A stretch of 64,000 bases of DNA, taken from the NCBI RefSeq assembly GCF_032814565.1, contig NZ_CP136521.1, positions 1,398,501-1,462,500 on the forward strand, written 5' to 3'. Under the pieces are notes generated by a model that was not told the DNA's origin, did not search any database, and saw only the letters and a program-made list of their open reading frames with translations. Source of the stretch: Hwangdonia lutea (GTDB lineage Bacteria > Bacteroidota > Bacteroidia > Flavobacteriales > Flavobacteriaceae). The position numbers and the translations under genes were made by a program. Every line of letters starts with the position of its first letter. Position 1 is the first letter of the stretch. Below are positions 28,738 to 50,335 of this stretch, one piece after another.

Positions 28738-28764
28738 GATTCCTGCCATCGCAGGAATGACAAA
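28738..28764. repeat. ATTCCTGC small hairpin repeat between kinase and regulator genes
   Basis: ATTCCTGC pairs with GCAGGAAT around CATC and is followed by GACAAA. It fills the intergenic gap of the two-component operon. Related copies are at 43272, 48028, 50289, 54011 and a decayed one at 37312. Confidence 0.85.
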
Positions 28765-28765
28765 C

Positions 28766-29737
28766 TTATTCAAGAATCAATTTTAAATACACTTTGAAGG
28801 TTTCAGTTTTATTAATTTTAAAGATGAATTTATCTTTATAAATCAGTTTTAATCGTTTTTCTAAGTTTTGTAAGCCTATTTTAAAATCGGTTTCGGTTAC
28901 TTTCTCTTTGTCAAAATCATTCTCACAAATACATTCTAAACTATTATTTTCAATATTAATAGAGATCGAAATATCGCTATTTAAAGTACTGTGTTTAAAA
29001 GCGTTCTCGATAATGGTTATTAAAAGCAATGGCGCAATTTTATGCTGAAACGAATCGATGTTTTTTGAATAATGAATCTGTTTTGTGCCTTCGGTTCGTA
29101 GCTTTTGAAATTTCATGTAATTATCAATAAACTGAATCTCTTTTTTCAAAGAAATCGTTTCAGCATTACTTTCGTAAAGTACATGTTTTAAGTTATCGGA
29201 TAGCATTAAAATAAGGTTGGCAGCTTCGTTTGGTTTTTCTAAAGTATAGGAATAAATGGTGTTCAAATTATTAAAAAGCACATGCGGGTTTATTTGCGAT
29301 TTTAAAAACTTCAGCTCCATTTCGGTGTGTTCTTTTTTAATCTGTTCCACTTCGGCTTGTTCATCTAAAAACCGGTACAGCATCCAAATAAAAGAGAAAA
29401 ATATGAGCGGCACCAGCGTTTGCCATAAGTAGTCGCTTAAACATTTCATAATAGAACATCCGCATTCTGCAAACACATTGCAATACAATTCGGTGGCTAA
29501 AAACGAGATGGCGGCAAAAACGAAAACGTACAAAATATAAAGCCGCTTTTTAACAAAAAACGGAAGCAACACAAAATGGTTGGCGTAAACAATAATAACG
29601 AGGATGGACAGGTATTGCAAAAACGGATTGTCGTGCCAATAAAAGTCTGAAAACAAAAAAAGCGATACTAATATAAACAGCATCCAAAACAGGATGTGCA
29701 CTAAAATTTGCGAAGTATGTTTGTGTAAAACCAGCAT
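28766..29737 (-). CDS. Sensor histidine kinase, LytS/YehU-type
   Basis: 323 residues from ATG 29737 (MLVLHKHTSQILVHILFWML). Four membrane helices occupy residues 10-135. The cytoplasmic part begins with a short coiled coil (EQAEVEQIKKEHTEMELKFLKSQ) leading into the His_kinase box INPHVLFNNLNTIYSYTLE (the family has NPHFL, here NPHVL), then the ATPase N-box LLITIIENAFKHS and a degenerate G-box region. It would phosphorylate the LytTR regulator encoded next. An upstream in-frame ATG (29791) gives an unlikely 18-residue extension. Confidence 0.93.
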   Translation of the reverse strand: MLVLHKHTSQILVHILFWMLFILVSLFLFSDFYWHDNPFLQYLSILVIIVYANHFVLLPFFVKKRLYILYVFVFAAISFLATELYCNVFAECGCSIMKCLSDYLWQTLVPLIFFSFIWMLYRFLDEQAEVEQIKKEHTEMELKFLKSQINPHVLFNNLNTIYSYTLEKPNEAANLILMLSDNLKHVLYESNAETISLKKEIQFIDNYMKFQKLRTEGTKQIHYSKNIDSFQHKIAPLLLITIIENAFKHSTLNSDISISINIENNSLECICENDFDKEKVTETDFKIGLQNLEKRLKLIYKDKFIFKINKTETFKVYLKLILE

Positions 29738-34041: not shown

Positions 34042-37000
34042 CTACCCCACAATATTCACGATTTTTCCGGGTACCACAATCACTTTTTTGGGTTCGCGCC
34101 CTTGTAATTGGTCCTTGGTTTTCTCGTGTGCCAATACCGCTTTTTCAATGTCTTCTTTACTCATATCCAAAGGCAATTCCATGGTAAAGCGCATTTTACC
34201 GTTAAACGAAATGGGGTAATTTTTACTGCTTTCTACCAAGTGCTTTTCCTCGAATTTCGGGAATGCCGCAGTTGAAATCGACTCGGCATGCCCCAATTGA
34301 TGCCATAATTCCTCGGCAATATGCGGCGCATACGGCGAGATTAAAATCAAGAGCGGTTCGAGTATGTCTTTTGATGTACATTTTTGAGCCGTTAACTCGT
34401 TAACCGCAATCATAAAAGTAGACACCGAGGTATTAAATGAAAAACTCTCAATATCTTCCTGTACTTTTTTAATGGTTTTGTGCAGTGTTTTTAAAGACTC
34501 TTTTGATGGTTCAGCATCATTAACTTTAAGTCCGTTATCATCGGCATACAATTTCCAAAGCTTTTTTAGGAAGGAATGCACACCCGTAATACCAGCAGTT
34601 TTCCAAGGTTTGTATTGCTCCAACGGGCCGAGGAACATTTCGTATAAACGTAAAGAATCCGCGCCGTAATCTGAAACAATATCATCTGGATTAACAACGT
34701 TGTATTTGGATTTCGACATTTTTTCGACGTCAAAATCGGCAAACAAATCAAACCCCTCTACCAACTGCGCCTTGCCTAATATTGAATGAAACATTTCCCA
34801 TGCTTTTAACTTCTTCAAATCAACTTTTGCTCCGGGGCCAACACAATCTACAGGTATATTATAACTTCGGGAAAACTCTAAGTTTTGAATTACAATATTA
34901 TTATCAAAAGATTTTAAAAGAAACTCTTTGTCTTTTATTGAAGATAGCTTTAAAATTAAACTATAAAGTTCTTTAAAATAATCTCCATCATCTGGATAAT
35001 CTGAAAAATTAAAATCTGAAAAAAGAATTGGTGATTTTAAACTCAATTTCACCTTAGAAAATCTATTTAATTTATCTTCAATTGAAAATGAGCTTGACAC
35101 TTTAACAAAAGCACTAGTCCCCAAAATCATCCCCTGGTTAATCAGTTTTTTGGCAAACTCATCAACGGGCACCAAACCTTTATCAAACAAAAATTTCTGC
35201 CAAAAACGCGCGTACAGTAAATGCCCTGTGGCATGCTCGCTGCCACCAATGTACAAATCGACGTCCTTCCAATAGTTTAGTGCTTCTTTACTTGCAAATT
35301 CGTTTTCGTTATGGGCATCCATATAGCGGTTAAAATACCACGAGCTTCCTGCCCACCCGGGCATGGTGTTTAATTCGAGAGGGTAAACGCCATTGTGTTG
35401 AGACCCTTCGACTGCGCTCAGGGTGACATCCTGCTCCTTTTTGTCATGCTGAACTTGTTTCAGCATCTCATTAGAAACCACTTTGTTTGTTTTAGTACAC
35501 CAAGCCCACTTTGTGGCGTTCCCCAATGGTGGTTCGCCAGTTTCGGTGGGTAAGTATTTTTCAACTTCGGGCAGTTTTATTGGTAAATGTGCCGTATCAA
35601 TCATTTGTGGCATCCCGTTTACATAATATACGGGAAACGGCTCGCCCCAATAACGCTGTCGCGAAAACACCGCATCGCGCAAACGGTAATTGGTTTTTCC
35701 TTCGCCCTGTTTAATTTTTTCCAATTCGTATATAACGCGTTTGGTGGCTTTTTTATAGTTTAATCCGTTAAGGAAATCGCTGTTTCCAATTACGGTTTTT
35801 TCTTTATCTGAAAATGCTTCTTCAGAAATATCTACCCCATCAAAAATATTTGGAATTGGAATATTAAAATGTTTTGCAAAATCGTAATCACGCTGATCGC
35901 CACAAGGCACCGACATTACCGCACCTGTACCATAGCCTGCCAACACGTAATCGCCAATCCAAATAGGAATAGGTTCTTTTGTAAATGGATGTTCGGCATA
36001 AGCACCCGTAAACACGCCCGAAATGGTTTTTACATCGGCCATTCTATCGCGTTCGCTACGTTTTGCCGTGGCTTCAACATAAGCGTCCACCTCAGCTTTT
36101 TGCTCAGGTGTTGTAATTTGCGATACCAATTCGTGCTCTGGTGCAAGCGTCATGAAACTGACTCCGAAAATGGTGTCGGGTCTGGTCGTGAATACATCTA
36201 TTTTATGGGACCCTTCAACTGCGCTCAGGGTGACATTCTCGTTTTCATTTTTGGGCAAAACGTTAAACGACACACTCGCTCCAACCGATTTTCCAATCCA
36301 GTTGCGTTGGCTTTCTTTTAAAGCATCTGTCCAATCAATTTTATCCAAACCTTGTAGCAAACGCTCTGCATAAGCCGATATACGCATACTCCATTGGGTC
36401 ATTTTTTTACGGATTACCGGATGCCCGCCACGTTCTGAAACCCCATTAACAATCTCATCGTTTGCTAAAACGGTTCCTAAAGCGGGACACCAATTCACTT
36501 CGGTTTCGGCTAAATAGGTTAAACGGTATTGCAATAATATCTGTTGCTGTTTTACCGTGTCGAAAGCATTCCAATCGACCGCAGTAAATAATTCGATATT
36601 ATCATCGCATACAGCATTTACTGTTGCGTTTCCTTCAGCTTCAAAAAGCTTTATCAATTCTGAAATATCTTCAGCTTTATCGCTGTCGTTATTGTACCAC
36701 GAATTGAACAATTGGATAAAAATCCATTGCGTCCATTTATAATAATTGGGGTCGGAAGTTCTTACTTCACGCGACCAATCGAACGAAAACCCGATTTGAT
36801 CGAGTTGACGGCGATAAGTTTTTATGTTTTCAGCAGTAGTGATTGCAGGATGTTGCCCGGTTTGAATCGCATATTGTTCAGCCGGCAAACCAAAGCTATC
36901 GTACCCTTGCGGATGCAATACATTAAACCCTTGGTGGCGCTTGTAACGCGCATAAATATCCGAGGCGATATAACCCAAGGGATGCCCAACGTGCAAGCCC

Positions 37001-37134
37001 GCACCACTTGGATAGGGAAACATATCCAACACATAATATTTTGGTTTGTCGCTACCGTTTACGGCTTTAAAAGTTTGGTTTTCTGCCCAATATTTTTGCC
37101 ACTTTTCTTCGATTTTATTGAAATCGTATTTCAT
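34042..37134 (-). CDS. leuS: Leucyl-tRNA synthetase with in-frame repeat insertions
   Basis: 1030 residues, long for the family. Class I motifs: HVGHPLGY near residue 47 and KMSKSKYN near 803. The CP1 editing domain starts near FTTRPDTIFGV (residue 315), and the Trp-rich PGWAGSSWYFNRYMD block is intact. Three short peptides match palindromic repeats read in frame: NVTLSAVEGS (about 300-309), and MLKQVQHD followed by DVTLSAVEGS (about 556-578). Both lie in loops, so the enzyme is probably active. Essential gene, so the inserts must be tolerated. Single gene. Confidence 0.97.
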   Translation of the reverse strand: MKYDFNKIEEKWQKYWAENQTFKAVNGSDKPKYYVLDMFPYPSGAGLHVGHPLGYIASDIYARYKRHQGFNVLHPQGYDSFGLPAEQYAIQTGQHPAITTAENIKTYRRQLDQIGFSFDWSREVRTSDPNYYKWTQWIFIQLFNSWYNNDSDKAEDISELIKLFEAEGNATVNAVCDDNIELFTAVDWNAFDTVKQQQILLQYRLTYLAETEVNWCPALGTVLANDEIVNGVSERGGHPVIRKKMTQWSMRISAYAERLLQGLDKIDWTDALKESQRNWIGKSVGASVSFNVLPKNENENVTLSAVEGSHKIDVFTTRPDTIFGVSFMTLAPEHELVSQITTPEQKAEVDAYVEATAKRSERDRMADVKTISGVFTGAYAEHPFTKEPIPIWIGDYVLAGYGTGAVMSVPCGDQRDYDFAKHFNIPIPNIFDGVDISEEAFSDKEKTVIGNSDFLNGLNYKKATKRVIYELEKIKQGEGKTNYRLRDAVFSRQRYWGEPFPVYYVNGMPQMIDTAHLPIKLPEVEKYLPTETGEPPLGNATKWAWCTKTNKVVSNEMLKQVQHDKKEQDVTLSAVEGSQHNGVYPLELNTMPGWAGSSWYFNRYMDAHNENEFASKEALNYWKDVDLYIGGSEHATGHLLYARFWQKFLFDKGLVPVDEFAKKLINQGMILGTSAFVKVSSSFSIEDKLNRFSKVKLSLKSPILFSDFNFSDYPDDGDYFKELYSLILKLSSIKDKEFLLKSFDNNIVIQNLEFSRSYNIPVDCVGPGAKVDLKKLKAWEMFHSILGKAQLVEGFDLFADFDVEKMSKSKYNVVNPDDIVSDYGADSLRLYEMFLGPLEQYKPWKTAGITGVHSFLKKLWKLYADDNGLKVNDAEPSKESLKTLHKTIKKVQEDIESFSFNTSVSTFMIAVNELTAQKCTSKDILEPLLILISPYAPHIAEELWHQLGHAESISTAAFPKFEEKHLVESSKNYPISFNGKMRFTMELPLDMSKEDIEKAVLAHEKTKDQLQGREPKKVIVVPGKIVNIVG
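35402..35429. repeat. ACCCTTCGACTGCGCTCAGGGT repeat inside leuS, copy 1
   Basis: ACCCT pairs with AGGGT around a 12-base core containing GACTGCGCTC. Read on the minus strand it encodes VTLSAVEG. A near-identical copy is at 36209. Confidence 0.85.
35443..35469. repeat. ATGCTGAA/TTCAGCAT repeat inside leuS
   Basis: GTCATGCTGAA, short loop, TTTCAGCATCTC. Encodes MLKQVQHD on the minus strand. A relative with a longer loop is at 54049-54098. Confidence 0.85.
36209..36236. repeat. ACCCTTCAACTGCGCTCAGGGT repeat inside leuS, copy 2
   Basis: Differs from the copy at 35402 by one base in the loop. Encodes NVTLSAVEGS before the editing domain. Confidence 0.85.
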
Positions 37135-43271: not shown

Positions 43272-43297
43272 GATTCCCACCTACGCGGGAATGACAA
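43272..43297. repeat. ATTCCCAC small hairpin repeat
   Basis: ATTCCCAC and GCGGGAAT around CTAC, followed by GACAA. Lies just after the stop of the DUF3127 gene. Confidence 0.75.
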
Positions 43298-43307
43298 ACT
43301 AGTTTTA

Positions 43308-48097: not shown

Positions 48098-50335
48098 TTA
48101 AAACTTTAAGGTTGCCCCAAGCAAAAAGTTTGTGGTTGCTTGCGGATAGTAGCCTGCACCCTCAATGGTTGTTGTAACTCCCGGAGTGCTCCAAGTGTCA
48201 TCATAGGTATAATAATATCCGTTTGACACATATTTTTCACCAAAAATATTATTTACCAATCCAGAAAGTGTAATGGATTTAAAAAGCGATTTGGTTTTAA
48301 TTTCATAAGTGACATTAAAATCATTTACAAAATAACTGTCTAATTTTGAGGCTTCCGAATCGTTATTTCCCATAAATTGTTCACCGACGTATTTGCTTAA
48401 AAAAGACATTTGAAAATGTGTTGATGGACTATAAATCAAAGCATTGGCCGCAACCAGCTCCGGTGAAAATGAAATATTTGTTTTACCTAAATTTTCTAAA
48501 ACCCCATCACGTTGGAAAAACGATTCTTTATTTTTATTTGAACTTATTGTAAAATTTGGTTGCACAGCAAACTGCTCAGAAATCCGTATAGCGGCATCAA
48601 CCTCTAAGCCCAAACGATAACTTTCGCCACTATTGGTTCTAATAGGTGTGCCCGTATTGTCTATGGCACCTGTTAAAACCAATTGCTCATTGTATAGCAT
48701 ATAATAGGCATTGGCGTTAATTCTGAATGCTCTATTACGGTGCCTCCAACCTAATTCGAAATCGTTTAACTGCTCTGGTTTTATGTTTGGATTGCTTTCA
48801 AAATCGCTGCGGCTTGGTTCTCGATTTGCCCGAGCATAAGAAAAATACAGGTTGTTATTAGCATCCAATTCATACGTAATTCCCGCTTTGGGATTGAAAA
48901 AGTTATACTGCTCATCAACCAATAAATTAATTCTGTCTGATGTTAAACCGGTGGTTTTATAATTTACAAAACGCATTTGCAAATCGCCGTACAAACTCAC
49001 CTTATCATTAAGTCTGTATGTGGCCTTTGTAAATAGACTAAAGTCTTTTTTCTTGCCTTGTCCGTTATAATAATGGTCGCCTATTTCAGAATCACTGGCA
49101 AAACGCGCCCATATTATTTCACCAAAATGGTCGCCAATATAACTGCTGTACGATAGTCCAAAATTCATGTCCAATACATTCTTTTTATAATTTGCACCGG
49201 CATTTACAACATAAAAGTTGTTATCTAACCAACGGCGACGAATTAAATCGGTTTCATCAATGGTTTCGCCACCTATATTTATTGGGGTTAAATCATATTC
49301 ATCAAAAGGCTCGTCTTCTTTATATTGTTCAAAATAACCACGTCCTTTGGTATAATTCAACGCTAGGTTTGTAGACCAATAGTTGTTGTATCGTTCATTC
49401 CAATGCAATTGATAATGGTCTTGCTGATAATTATCTTCTTCATTTTCATGAAATTGAGTATTCCCATTTTCATCGGTGTATTCACCAGCGGTATTATAGG
49501 TTCTATTATTGGCTAAAAGATCTAAATCCTCTAAACCATTCCAAGATTGATAGGTAATTTCATGGCCGCTAAAAGTAATGGCCTTTATTAACGTGTTGTC
49601 ATCGACATAAGCCCCTTGGAGGAAATACGATTTTAAATCGGATGAGGCCCTATCAATATAACCATCGGATTTAATTTTAGATAATCGCCCTGCAATTTCT
49701 ATGTTATTATTGAGTTTACCCGTGCTAAATTTAATACTGTGCTTTCTGGTATTATAACTTCCGAAGGTATTGGAAATTTCTCCCTTAGCTTCCTCTGAAA
49801 CCGCATCGGTAAGTACGTTAATACTCGCGCCAAAAGCACCCGAACCGTTGGTTGATGTACCTACGCCACGTTGTAATTGCAGACTTTCTACCGAAGATGC
49901 AAAATCGCCTAAATTCACCCAAAATGTCCCTAAAGACTCCGCATCGTTGTACGGAATACCATTGAGTGTAATATTGGTGGATTGCGCATTAATACCACGA
50001 ATGCGAATACCCGTGTAACCCACACCGGCACCGGCATCGGTAGTGGTTACAACCGACGGTAAATAGTTTAATAAAACAGGAATATCTTGCCCTAAATTGC
50101 GTTTTTCCAACTGTTTTTTAGTAACGTTGGAGTGTGTAATGGGCGATGTAGCATTTACACGAACGGCTTTCACTAAAACTTCGTCTAGTTTTTGTGTTTT
50201 AGTTGAATCTTGTTCGGTTTGATTTTGTTGTGCACTAACCCCAAAGGAAAGTAGAACACCAAATAAGGTTAAACACTTTTTTTGATAAGATTCCTGCCTT
50301 CGCAGGAATGACAAATTTTCGAATAAATTTTTCAT
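48098..50335 (-). CDS. TonB-dependent receptor under TPP riboswitch (likely thiamine uptake)
   Basis: 745 residues. Signal sequence region 1-35, in which residues 8-16 (LSFLRRQES) are encoded by a hairpin repeat, then KKCLTLFGVLLSFGVSAQQ. Plug domain at about 55-175 (LLNYLPSVVTTTDAGAGVGYTGIRIRGINAQSTNITLNGIPYNDAES). The rest is a 22-strand barrel ending ATTNFLLGATLKF. A TPP riboswitch precedes it, so it should import thiamine or a thiamine relative across the outer membrane, powered by TonB. The PnuC/PnuT gene two genes upstream would carry it through the inner membrane. Confidence 0.95.
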   Translation of the reverse strand: MKNLFENLSFLRRQESYQKKCLTLFGVLLSFGVSAQQNQTEQDSTKTQKLDEVLVKAVRVNATSPITHSNVTKKQLEKRNLGQDIPVLLNYLPSVVTTTDAGAGVGYTGIRIRGINAQSTNITLNGIPYNDAESLGTFWVNLGDFASSVESLQLQRGVGTSTNGSGAFGASINVLTDAVSEEAKGEISNTFGSYNTRKHSIKFSTGKLNNNIEIAGRLSKIKSDGYIDRASSDLKSYFLQGAYVDDNTLIKAITFSGHEITYQSWNGLEDLDLLANNRTYNTAGEYTDENGNTQFHENEEDNYQQDHYQLHWNERYNNYWSTNLALNYTKGRGYFEQYKEDEPFDEYDLTPINIGGETIDETDLIRRRWLDNNFYVVNAGANYKKNVLDMNFGLSYSSYIGDHFGEIIWARFASDSEIGDHYYNGQGKKKDFSLFTKATYRLNDKVSLYGDLQMRFVNYKTTGLTSDRINLLVDEQYNFFNPKAGITYELDANNNLYFSYARANREPSRSDFESNPNIKPEQLNDFELGWRHRNRAFRINANAYYMLYNEQLVLTGAIDNTGTPIRTNSGESYRLGLEVDAAIRISEQFAVQPNFTISSNKNKESFFQRDGVLENLGKTNISFSPELVAANALIYSPSTHFQMSFLSKYVGEQFMGNNDSEASKLDSYFVNDFNVTYEIKTKSLFKSITLSGLVNNIFGEKYVSNGYYYTYDDTWSTPGVTTTIEGAGYYPQATTNFLLGATLKF
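50289..50315. repeat. ATTCCTGC small hairpin repeat inside TonB receptor coding region
   Basis: ATTCCTGC pairs with GCAGGAAT around CTTC, followed by GACAAA. On the minus strand it is translated as LSFLRRQES in the n-region of the signal peptide. Confidence 0.9.

Follow-up and report, generated by a model that had tools for sequence, protein, structure and literature searches.

CGTC-type palindromic repeats in the leucyl-tRNA synthetase gene of Hwangdonia lutea and their association with small GIY-YIG nuclease genes

Short tagged hairpins dispersed through bacterial genomes have been described in several systems. CGTC-tagged REPs, as described by Di Nocera, De Gregorio and Rocco (2013, PMC3733652), consist of an unpaired tag at one end (CGTC, TGTC or CCTC), an 8–9 bp stem with A/T in its first two positions, a 4–5 nt loop and a CCA-like tail. 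The same paper lists them from five phyla, including Bacteroidetes, some of them within genes; genomic dimers are mostly head-to-head, and a dedicated transposase is apparently lacking. The R. conorii families CGTC-1 and CGTC-4 are there equated with RPE-6 and RPE-4 of the Rickettsia palindromic elements (RPE), short palindromes translated in frame within unrelated proteins (Ogata 2002; Claverie and Ogata 2003; both as cited in PMC3733652). Both the CGTC REP class and insertion in frame are already known. In the GTAG system, GTAG repeats border the RAYT genes (PMC3733652), and coevolution of the RAYT enzyme with its cognate REP has been suggested (PMC6006769).

Here, we describe three such repeats inside leuS of Hwangdonia lutea. 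The gene lies in a 64,000-nucleotide stretch of the single 3.9 Mb contig of this genome, referred to as the window, in which the following features are found:

34042–37134, minus strand: leuS, leucyl-tRNA synthetase (LeuRS), the host gene, with a frame open over 1030 aa.
35403–35428, minus strand: palindrome A, copy 1, at LeuRS site 2; TGTCA tag leading on the minus strand, peptide DVTLSAVEG.
35442–35467, plus strand: palindrome B, paired head-to-head with copy 1 of A; TGTCA tag leading on the plus strand, minus-strand peptide MLKQVQHD.
36210–36235, minus strand: palindrome A, copy 2, at LeuRS site 1; peptide NVTLSAVEG, directly ahead of VFTTRPDTIFG.

The leuS product matched the leuS_bact model with 897.9 bits (cut-off 548.4). 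A sequence-only reading of the window had reported three palindromic repeats translated in frame within this gene, and this was borne out: the repeats are exact pattern matches (A at 35404–35428 and 36211–36235, B at 35443–35467), while 100 shuffles of the window gave no match to either pattern at up to three mismatches. The minus-strand frame of leuS translates them as MLKQVQHD, DVTLSAVEGS and NVTLSAVEGS. On the coding strand, site 2 consists of B followed by A, a head-to-head pair (35403–35467) with a short spacer between, ahead of PLELNTMPGWAGSS; site 1 has a single A. Site 2 lies ahead of the PGWAGSS block, as previously read, and site 1 ahead of the TTRPDT block. The same reading placed all three on one strand and in one frame, which is correct for the two A copies, but B is reversed. 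Additional palindromes of another type, C (TGTCATTCC...GGAATC-like), are found in the window at 28738–28767, 43272–43301 and 50289–50318, with 80–93% identity to the first copy; one of them is close to the beginning of an ORF of 745 aa. The window also contains a 59-nt direct repeat (1301–1359 and 1515–1573; 92% identity, 214 bp apart).

With the CGTC REPs of PMC3733652, the H. lutea elements share the YGTC tag at one end, the hairpin, the occurrence as dispersed singles and head-to-head pairs, and the location of some copies within genes. B has a stem of 8 bp, a loop of 5 nt and A/T in the first two stem positions (ATGCTGAA arm); A has the tag as well, but its stem is shorter, with tandem G.A mismatches. 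In leuS, neither A nor B is followed by a CCA tail (the next letters are TCT, TCC and CTC), and because the tail is lacking we refer to both as CGTC-type and do not assign them to families CGTC-1 to 4. B fits a CGTC-tagged REP except for the tail, and A is a divergent relative with the same tag.

An in-frame peptide in an essential protein might also be an ancient or functionally selected part of that protein. We aligned leuS from the 30 best-scoring of 60 genomes searched, with one gene per genome and H. lutea included; the relatives searched contained no congener. In 24 of the 30, sites 1 and 2 contained neither a palindrome nor a DUF559 unit. The stretch at site 1 is typically 14 residues long (SVSFKVNDYDAVID), compared to 27 in H. 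lutea, and site 2 typically lacks the B/A peptide. (The B pattern is short, and also matches a native stretch at codon 154 in 4/30 leuS.) Palindromes also occur here in four other genera of the alignment: in G019 there is an A at site 2, in G028 both sites are occupied, each by a different palindrome, and in G029 and G005 site 1 contains two; a fifth genome, G036, has a palindrome-flanked DUF559 unit at site 1. The H. lutea repeats are insertions, missing from the LeuRS of most other genera, as the sequence-only reading had supposed. Since most of the LeuRS inserts differ in sequence and frame, the alignment points to mostly separate insertions; apart from A at site 2 of G019, this variability is difficult to reconcile with inherited or selected parts of the enzyme, an explanation that we consider scarcely credible.

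The sequence-only reading further placed the inserts in loops. An AlphaFold model of LeuRS, based on a 21-row alignment, was poor, with a mean pLDDT of 57.6. In this model, residues 297–307 have pLDDT < 50 and lie between predicted strands 280–293 and 311–316, compatible with a loop at site 1. Around site 2 the model has low confidence, and the probable loop character of this site is therefore taken from the alignment only.

Site 1 is also occupied by larger inserts. Among 149 genomes searched for PF04480, at least 12, including G036, have an in-frame DUF559 nuclease at this site (L120, L122, L123, L125, L126, L127, L133, L136, L140, L159, L160 and L161). Nine of these were seen in the DNA, eight with palindromic ends by eye and one (G002) without, and three in the protein. 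DUF559 domains were also found in what we take, from the translations, to be MetH (L142, L147, L162) and RecG (L158, L163), at the N-terminus of a presumed HemD (L124, L130, L132, L138, L139, L149) and at the C-terminus of a presumed HisD (L129). All of these domains keep the frame of the host enzyme, whether internal or terminal, and the cases seen at the DNA level lie mostly between hairpins of other types.

In the whole genome, A is present in 25 copies and B in 5 at up to two mismatches, while reversed patterns gave 0 copies. Protein-coding ORFs contain at least six A copies, distributed over five or more genes. Two of the copies are in leuS; the other hosts are a Type ISP enzyme, a BioF-like enzyme, a ketoacyl-synthase-like enzyme and a GYDIA GHMP kinase, of which 320 residues aligned with a model of 299 positions. 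B is internal to three ORFs: leuS, PrmC and a mannosyltransferase-like ORF of weak identity. (Hosts other than leuS were judged by family models; the orthologue comparison concerns leuS.) A is translated in three frames, giving VTLSAVEG, CHTERSRS-type and FDCAQG-type peptides, and B is elsewhere also read as RHAELVSAS. Thus, no single frame is special, and the fixed strand and frame suggested by leuS do not hold for the family. Nor did the prediction that the same peptides would recur in many unrelated proteins: among the copies read in this genome, VTLSAVEG is internal only to leuS, and the peptides encoded by the other A copies differ from it, the nearest being SLSAVEG at the end of one MetH-like ORF. 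(This ORF, L013 at 1004303, which we take from its translation to resemble the N-terminal module of MetH, has an A copy as its last residues, FSLSAVEGSF.) The comparison with Rickettsia RPE was apt insofar as A and B lie in frame in unrelated proteins and the leuS inserts are absent from most orthologues; the phylum is different, and the likeness is one of description. The occurrence in Bacteroidota, which had been presented as unusual, is already listed for CGTC REPs in PMC3733652.

The tag is TGTC in 21/25 A copies (the search pattern includes the tag, with two mismatches allowed) and CGTC or TGTC in 4/5 B copies. A is an imperfect palindrome with five Watson-Crick pairs and either a long loop or tandem G.A mismatches, and its folding energy is no better than that of shuffled sequences (z about 0, compared to -4.3 for B). 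However, while the tag and loop of A are nearly constant, its arms change together: we counted 23 cells with compensatory changes in the stem, compared to 6.4 in shuffles (0/500 as high) and at most 4 when the stem partners were slid. At one locus (L021), the loop of a B copy contains an A copy, and comparison with the B consensus shows neither loss nor duplication of bases, which is compatible with insertion.

Each of the families also occurs in a larger form. Two units of roughly 400 bp in the H. lutea genome (G000) consist of a GIY-YIG gene within an inverted pair of A (G000:1994083) or B (G000:3512177), and inverted A pairs 300–450 bp apart hold small GIY-YIG genes in H. lutea and two other genomes. 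(Another inverted A pair in H. lutea, 815 bp apart, holds an ORF that we presume to be HD-type, and not a GIY gene.) A GIY ORF was present in 5 of 52 A-centred loci (23 from H. lutea and 29 from other genomes), corresponding to four genes in all; most A copies are therefore solitary. Of ten PF01541 matches in the H. lutea genome, six are small ORFs, and three of these six lie between two palindromes of one class (L197 between A, L194 between B and L198 between C copies). For a fourth (L195), inspection by eye shows related hairpins to either side, while no hairpins were detected by the patterns used in the flanks of the other two (L177 and L196), and none near the four longer GIY proteins.

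A flanked GIY gene matched PF01541 with 60.7 bits (cut-off 22.6). Residues Y4, Y7, Y17, G19, R27 and E65 are invariant in eight aligned proteins; we assume that these Y, YxG, R and E residues are catalytic. Searched against solved structures, the GIY profile matched UPF0213 proteins (1zg2, E 5.6e-16; 1ywl, E 1.7e-13) and, weakly, SLX1 (7cq2, E 0.0038), which the structure record names as a structure-specific endonuclease subunit. Unlike for the REP-flanked nuclease, no link to REPs was found for these sequence relatives in the open-licence literature as covered by title and start of abstract. At the same depth, which is not proof of absence, no link between GIY-YIG proteins and REPs or palindromes was found; 'GIY' does not occur in the text of PMC12306157 or PMC6006769, nor 'GIY-YIG' in that of PMC3733652 or PMC8266576.

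Scoring the flanks of GIY genes by de novo inverted matches hardly separated them from Y1, DUF559 and leuS controls. Since the stems of the paired flanking copies are frequently not alike, this scoring was replaced by tag-plus-hairpin and class patterns. The wide set comprised the best 80 of 549 relatives, chosen by sequence, and therefore favours one clade; its phyla, as labelled, include Bacteroidota, Pseudomonadota, Chloroflexota, Planctomycetota, Patescibacteria-type and others. GTC-tagged hairpins were found on at least one side in 72/80 of these best-scoring loci and on both sides in 54/80, compared to 20/73 and 0/73 in shifted controls (one window upstream of the gene; seven of the 80 loci had too little upstream DNA). 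The corresponding counts were 2/23 and 0/23 for Y1_Tnp loci and 8/29 and 2/29 for DUF559 loci (30 of each, the rest being too short). Within the 54 two-sided loci of the best 80, the upstream tag was YGTCA in 45 and the tail of the upstream hairpin held CCA in 48, and the median gaps to the gene match were 27 and 28 bp. For small GIY genes of the H. lutea-type family, this strict detector, which does not pick up A, A' or untagged B types, found tagged hairpins on at least one side in 44/100 and on both sides in only 17/100. The association of GIY-YIG genes with such elements is a difference from the CGTC REPs of PMC3733652, for which that paper found no dedicated enzyme.

Some small GIY-YIG genes had other neighbors. 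Eight of 22 loci scanned lie beside tRNA genes (L166, L181, L193, L220, L229, L232, L236 and L239); at L239, the GIY gene comes after a partial copy of tRNA-Leu with a palindrome and before an intact tRNA-Leu. In two cases the GIY-YIG ORF runs in frame into another ORF, which we take to be a pyridoxal-enzyme-like ORF of 435 aa (L234) and a GHMP-kinase-like ORF resembling the A-insert host of H. lutea (L209).

With looser patterns, 50 of 99 GIY rows of the family had one palindrome class on both sides and 49 had no shared class. (The 100-gene and 99-row sets were chosen by sequence, except for L101, L114 and L116, which were chosen for an adjacent A.) A tree was built from the 50 same-class rows; the 49 dropped rows include L197 of H. 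lutea, in which the second A overlaps the end of the ORF. The tree required 10 class changes, compared to 32.2 when classes were shuffled (0/200 as low). Classes A' and E form single clades with starred support, while class F (three rows) is not clearly clustered by itself (16/500 shuffles). GIY clade and palindrome class thus co-segregate.

The pairing extends to copy number in a sample of 149 genomes, one per genus. A-type GIY genes (at least 170 bits) were present in 10 of these, each with 8–33 A copies; the median was 19 copies, compared to 0 in the remaining 139 genomes (p=1.7e-8). B-type GIY genes (at least 108 bits) were present in 33 genomes, two of them without B copies, with a median of 7 B copies compared to 0 in the other 116 (p=6.2e-15). 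The counts include copies flanking the GIY genes, and the thresholds were set after seeing the lists; for A, 150 and 120 bits gave p values of 4e-9 and 1e-10. Cross pairs were weaker (A-type GIY with B copies, p=0.0084; B-type GIY with A copies, p=0.0013), and as DUF559 was also associated with A copies, the association partly reflects general repeat load. Moreover, the p values are overstated because genomes of one family are not independent. Among 20 genomes with at least eight A copies, 10 have an A-type GIY of at least 170 bits and six a weaker one (125–165 bits); in the remaining four (G019, G150, G158 and G164, with 13–23 A copies) no A-type match was found at E<=1e-25, which loss of the GIY gene would explain. 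Flank tallies for profile-found GIY loci (23 of 27 readable, out of 30 loci) and for a second such set (both sides 20/30, any side 28/30) are partly circular, because the profiles, A4 and A6, were built from flank-chosen genes (six A-flanked and seven mostly B-flanked).

Two other enzyme types were considered as mobilizers in the same sample. The RAYT/IS200-type Y1 transposases have been proposed to mobilize GTAG REPs, and the H. lutea units resemble that system in having an enzyme gene between hairpin repeats together with many solitary repeats; RAYT genes are themselves repeat-flanked, as described above. However, the tag here is GTC (TGTC in A) rather than GTAG, and the enzyme is a GIY-YIG protein rather than a Y1 transposase. 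The H. lutea genome had no match to PF01797, and a RAYT/Y1 mobilizer was rejected for this genome at the threshold tested; A, B, C or D elements occurred in 0/30 Y1 loci, and Y1_Tnp presence did not follow copy number among the 149 genomes (p=0.16 for A, 0.11 for B). Mobilization of A and B by Y1 enzymes accordingly deserves almost no credence. It is also very improbable that A and B are moved by the DUF559 nucleases of other genera, which share the LeuRS loop, have palindromic ends and co-occur weakly with A (p=0.0025): their units are bounded by other palindromes, A was found in 0/30 and B in 1/30 DUF559 loci, and there was no link to B copies (p=0.4). DUF559 was thus left unsupported as the A/B mobilizer.

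A further alternative is that some unknown process, or one of the host, spreads CGTC REPs, the leuS repeats among them, and that the GIY-YIG genes are homing parasites that landed on REP hairpins without moving them. REPs have been reported as insertion sequence targets (PMC1525189), and site-specific homing would also yield the pairing of clade with class and the co-occurrence. However, in the 54 two-sided loci from the best 80 of 549, the nearest tags point outward in 33, inward in 9 and in parallel in 12, whereas CGTC dimers are mostly head-to-head according to PMC3733652. Assuming that "head" denotes the tagged end in that source, most units are unlike the product of insertion into an existing dimer, and we regard homing as unlikely, though a serious alternative.

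We consider it probable that the three leuS repeats represent mobile hairpins of the CGTC type, solitary and non-autonomous, and that GIY-YIG nucleases mobilize such REPs. Counting against this view are the A-rich genomes with a weaker A-type GIY match or none, the low two-sided count among the 100 family genes, the 49 rows with no shared class, the inverted A pair around a presumed HD-type ORF, the share of general repeat load in the association and the weak folding of A. In the proposed mechanism, the nuclease encoded within the inverted pair of its own palindrome would recognize the tag plus hairpin and cut beside the hairpin, at the tag–hairpin junction, in single-stranded or extruded DNA. 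Repair would then copy the hairpin or the whole unit elsewhere, so that both the units and, in trans, the solitary hairpins would spread. A and B hairpins would have entered two variable stretches of LeuRS in this way, and would persist there as presumably neutral inserts because insertion kept the frame and LeuRS tolerates the extra residues.

By a slight balance of the evidence, we favor the broader view that GIY-YIG proteins are dedicated mobilizers of CGTC-type REPs across bacteria, non-Y1 enzymes that recognize hairpins, with each clade moving its own family and thereby introducing peptides into host proteins. For CGTC REPs, which PMC3733652 lists from five phyla and leaves without a dedicated transposase, the pairing of hairpin with GIY clade makes the question testable with one protein and one oligonucleotide. 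VTLSAVEG and MLKQVQHD in predicted proteins would then be read as footprints of mobile DNA, and not as conserved motifs.
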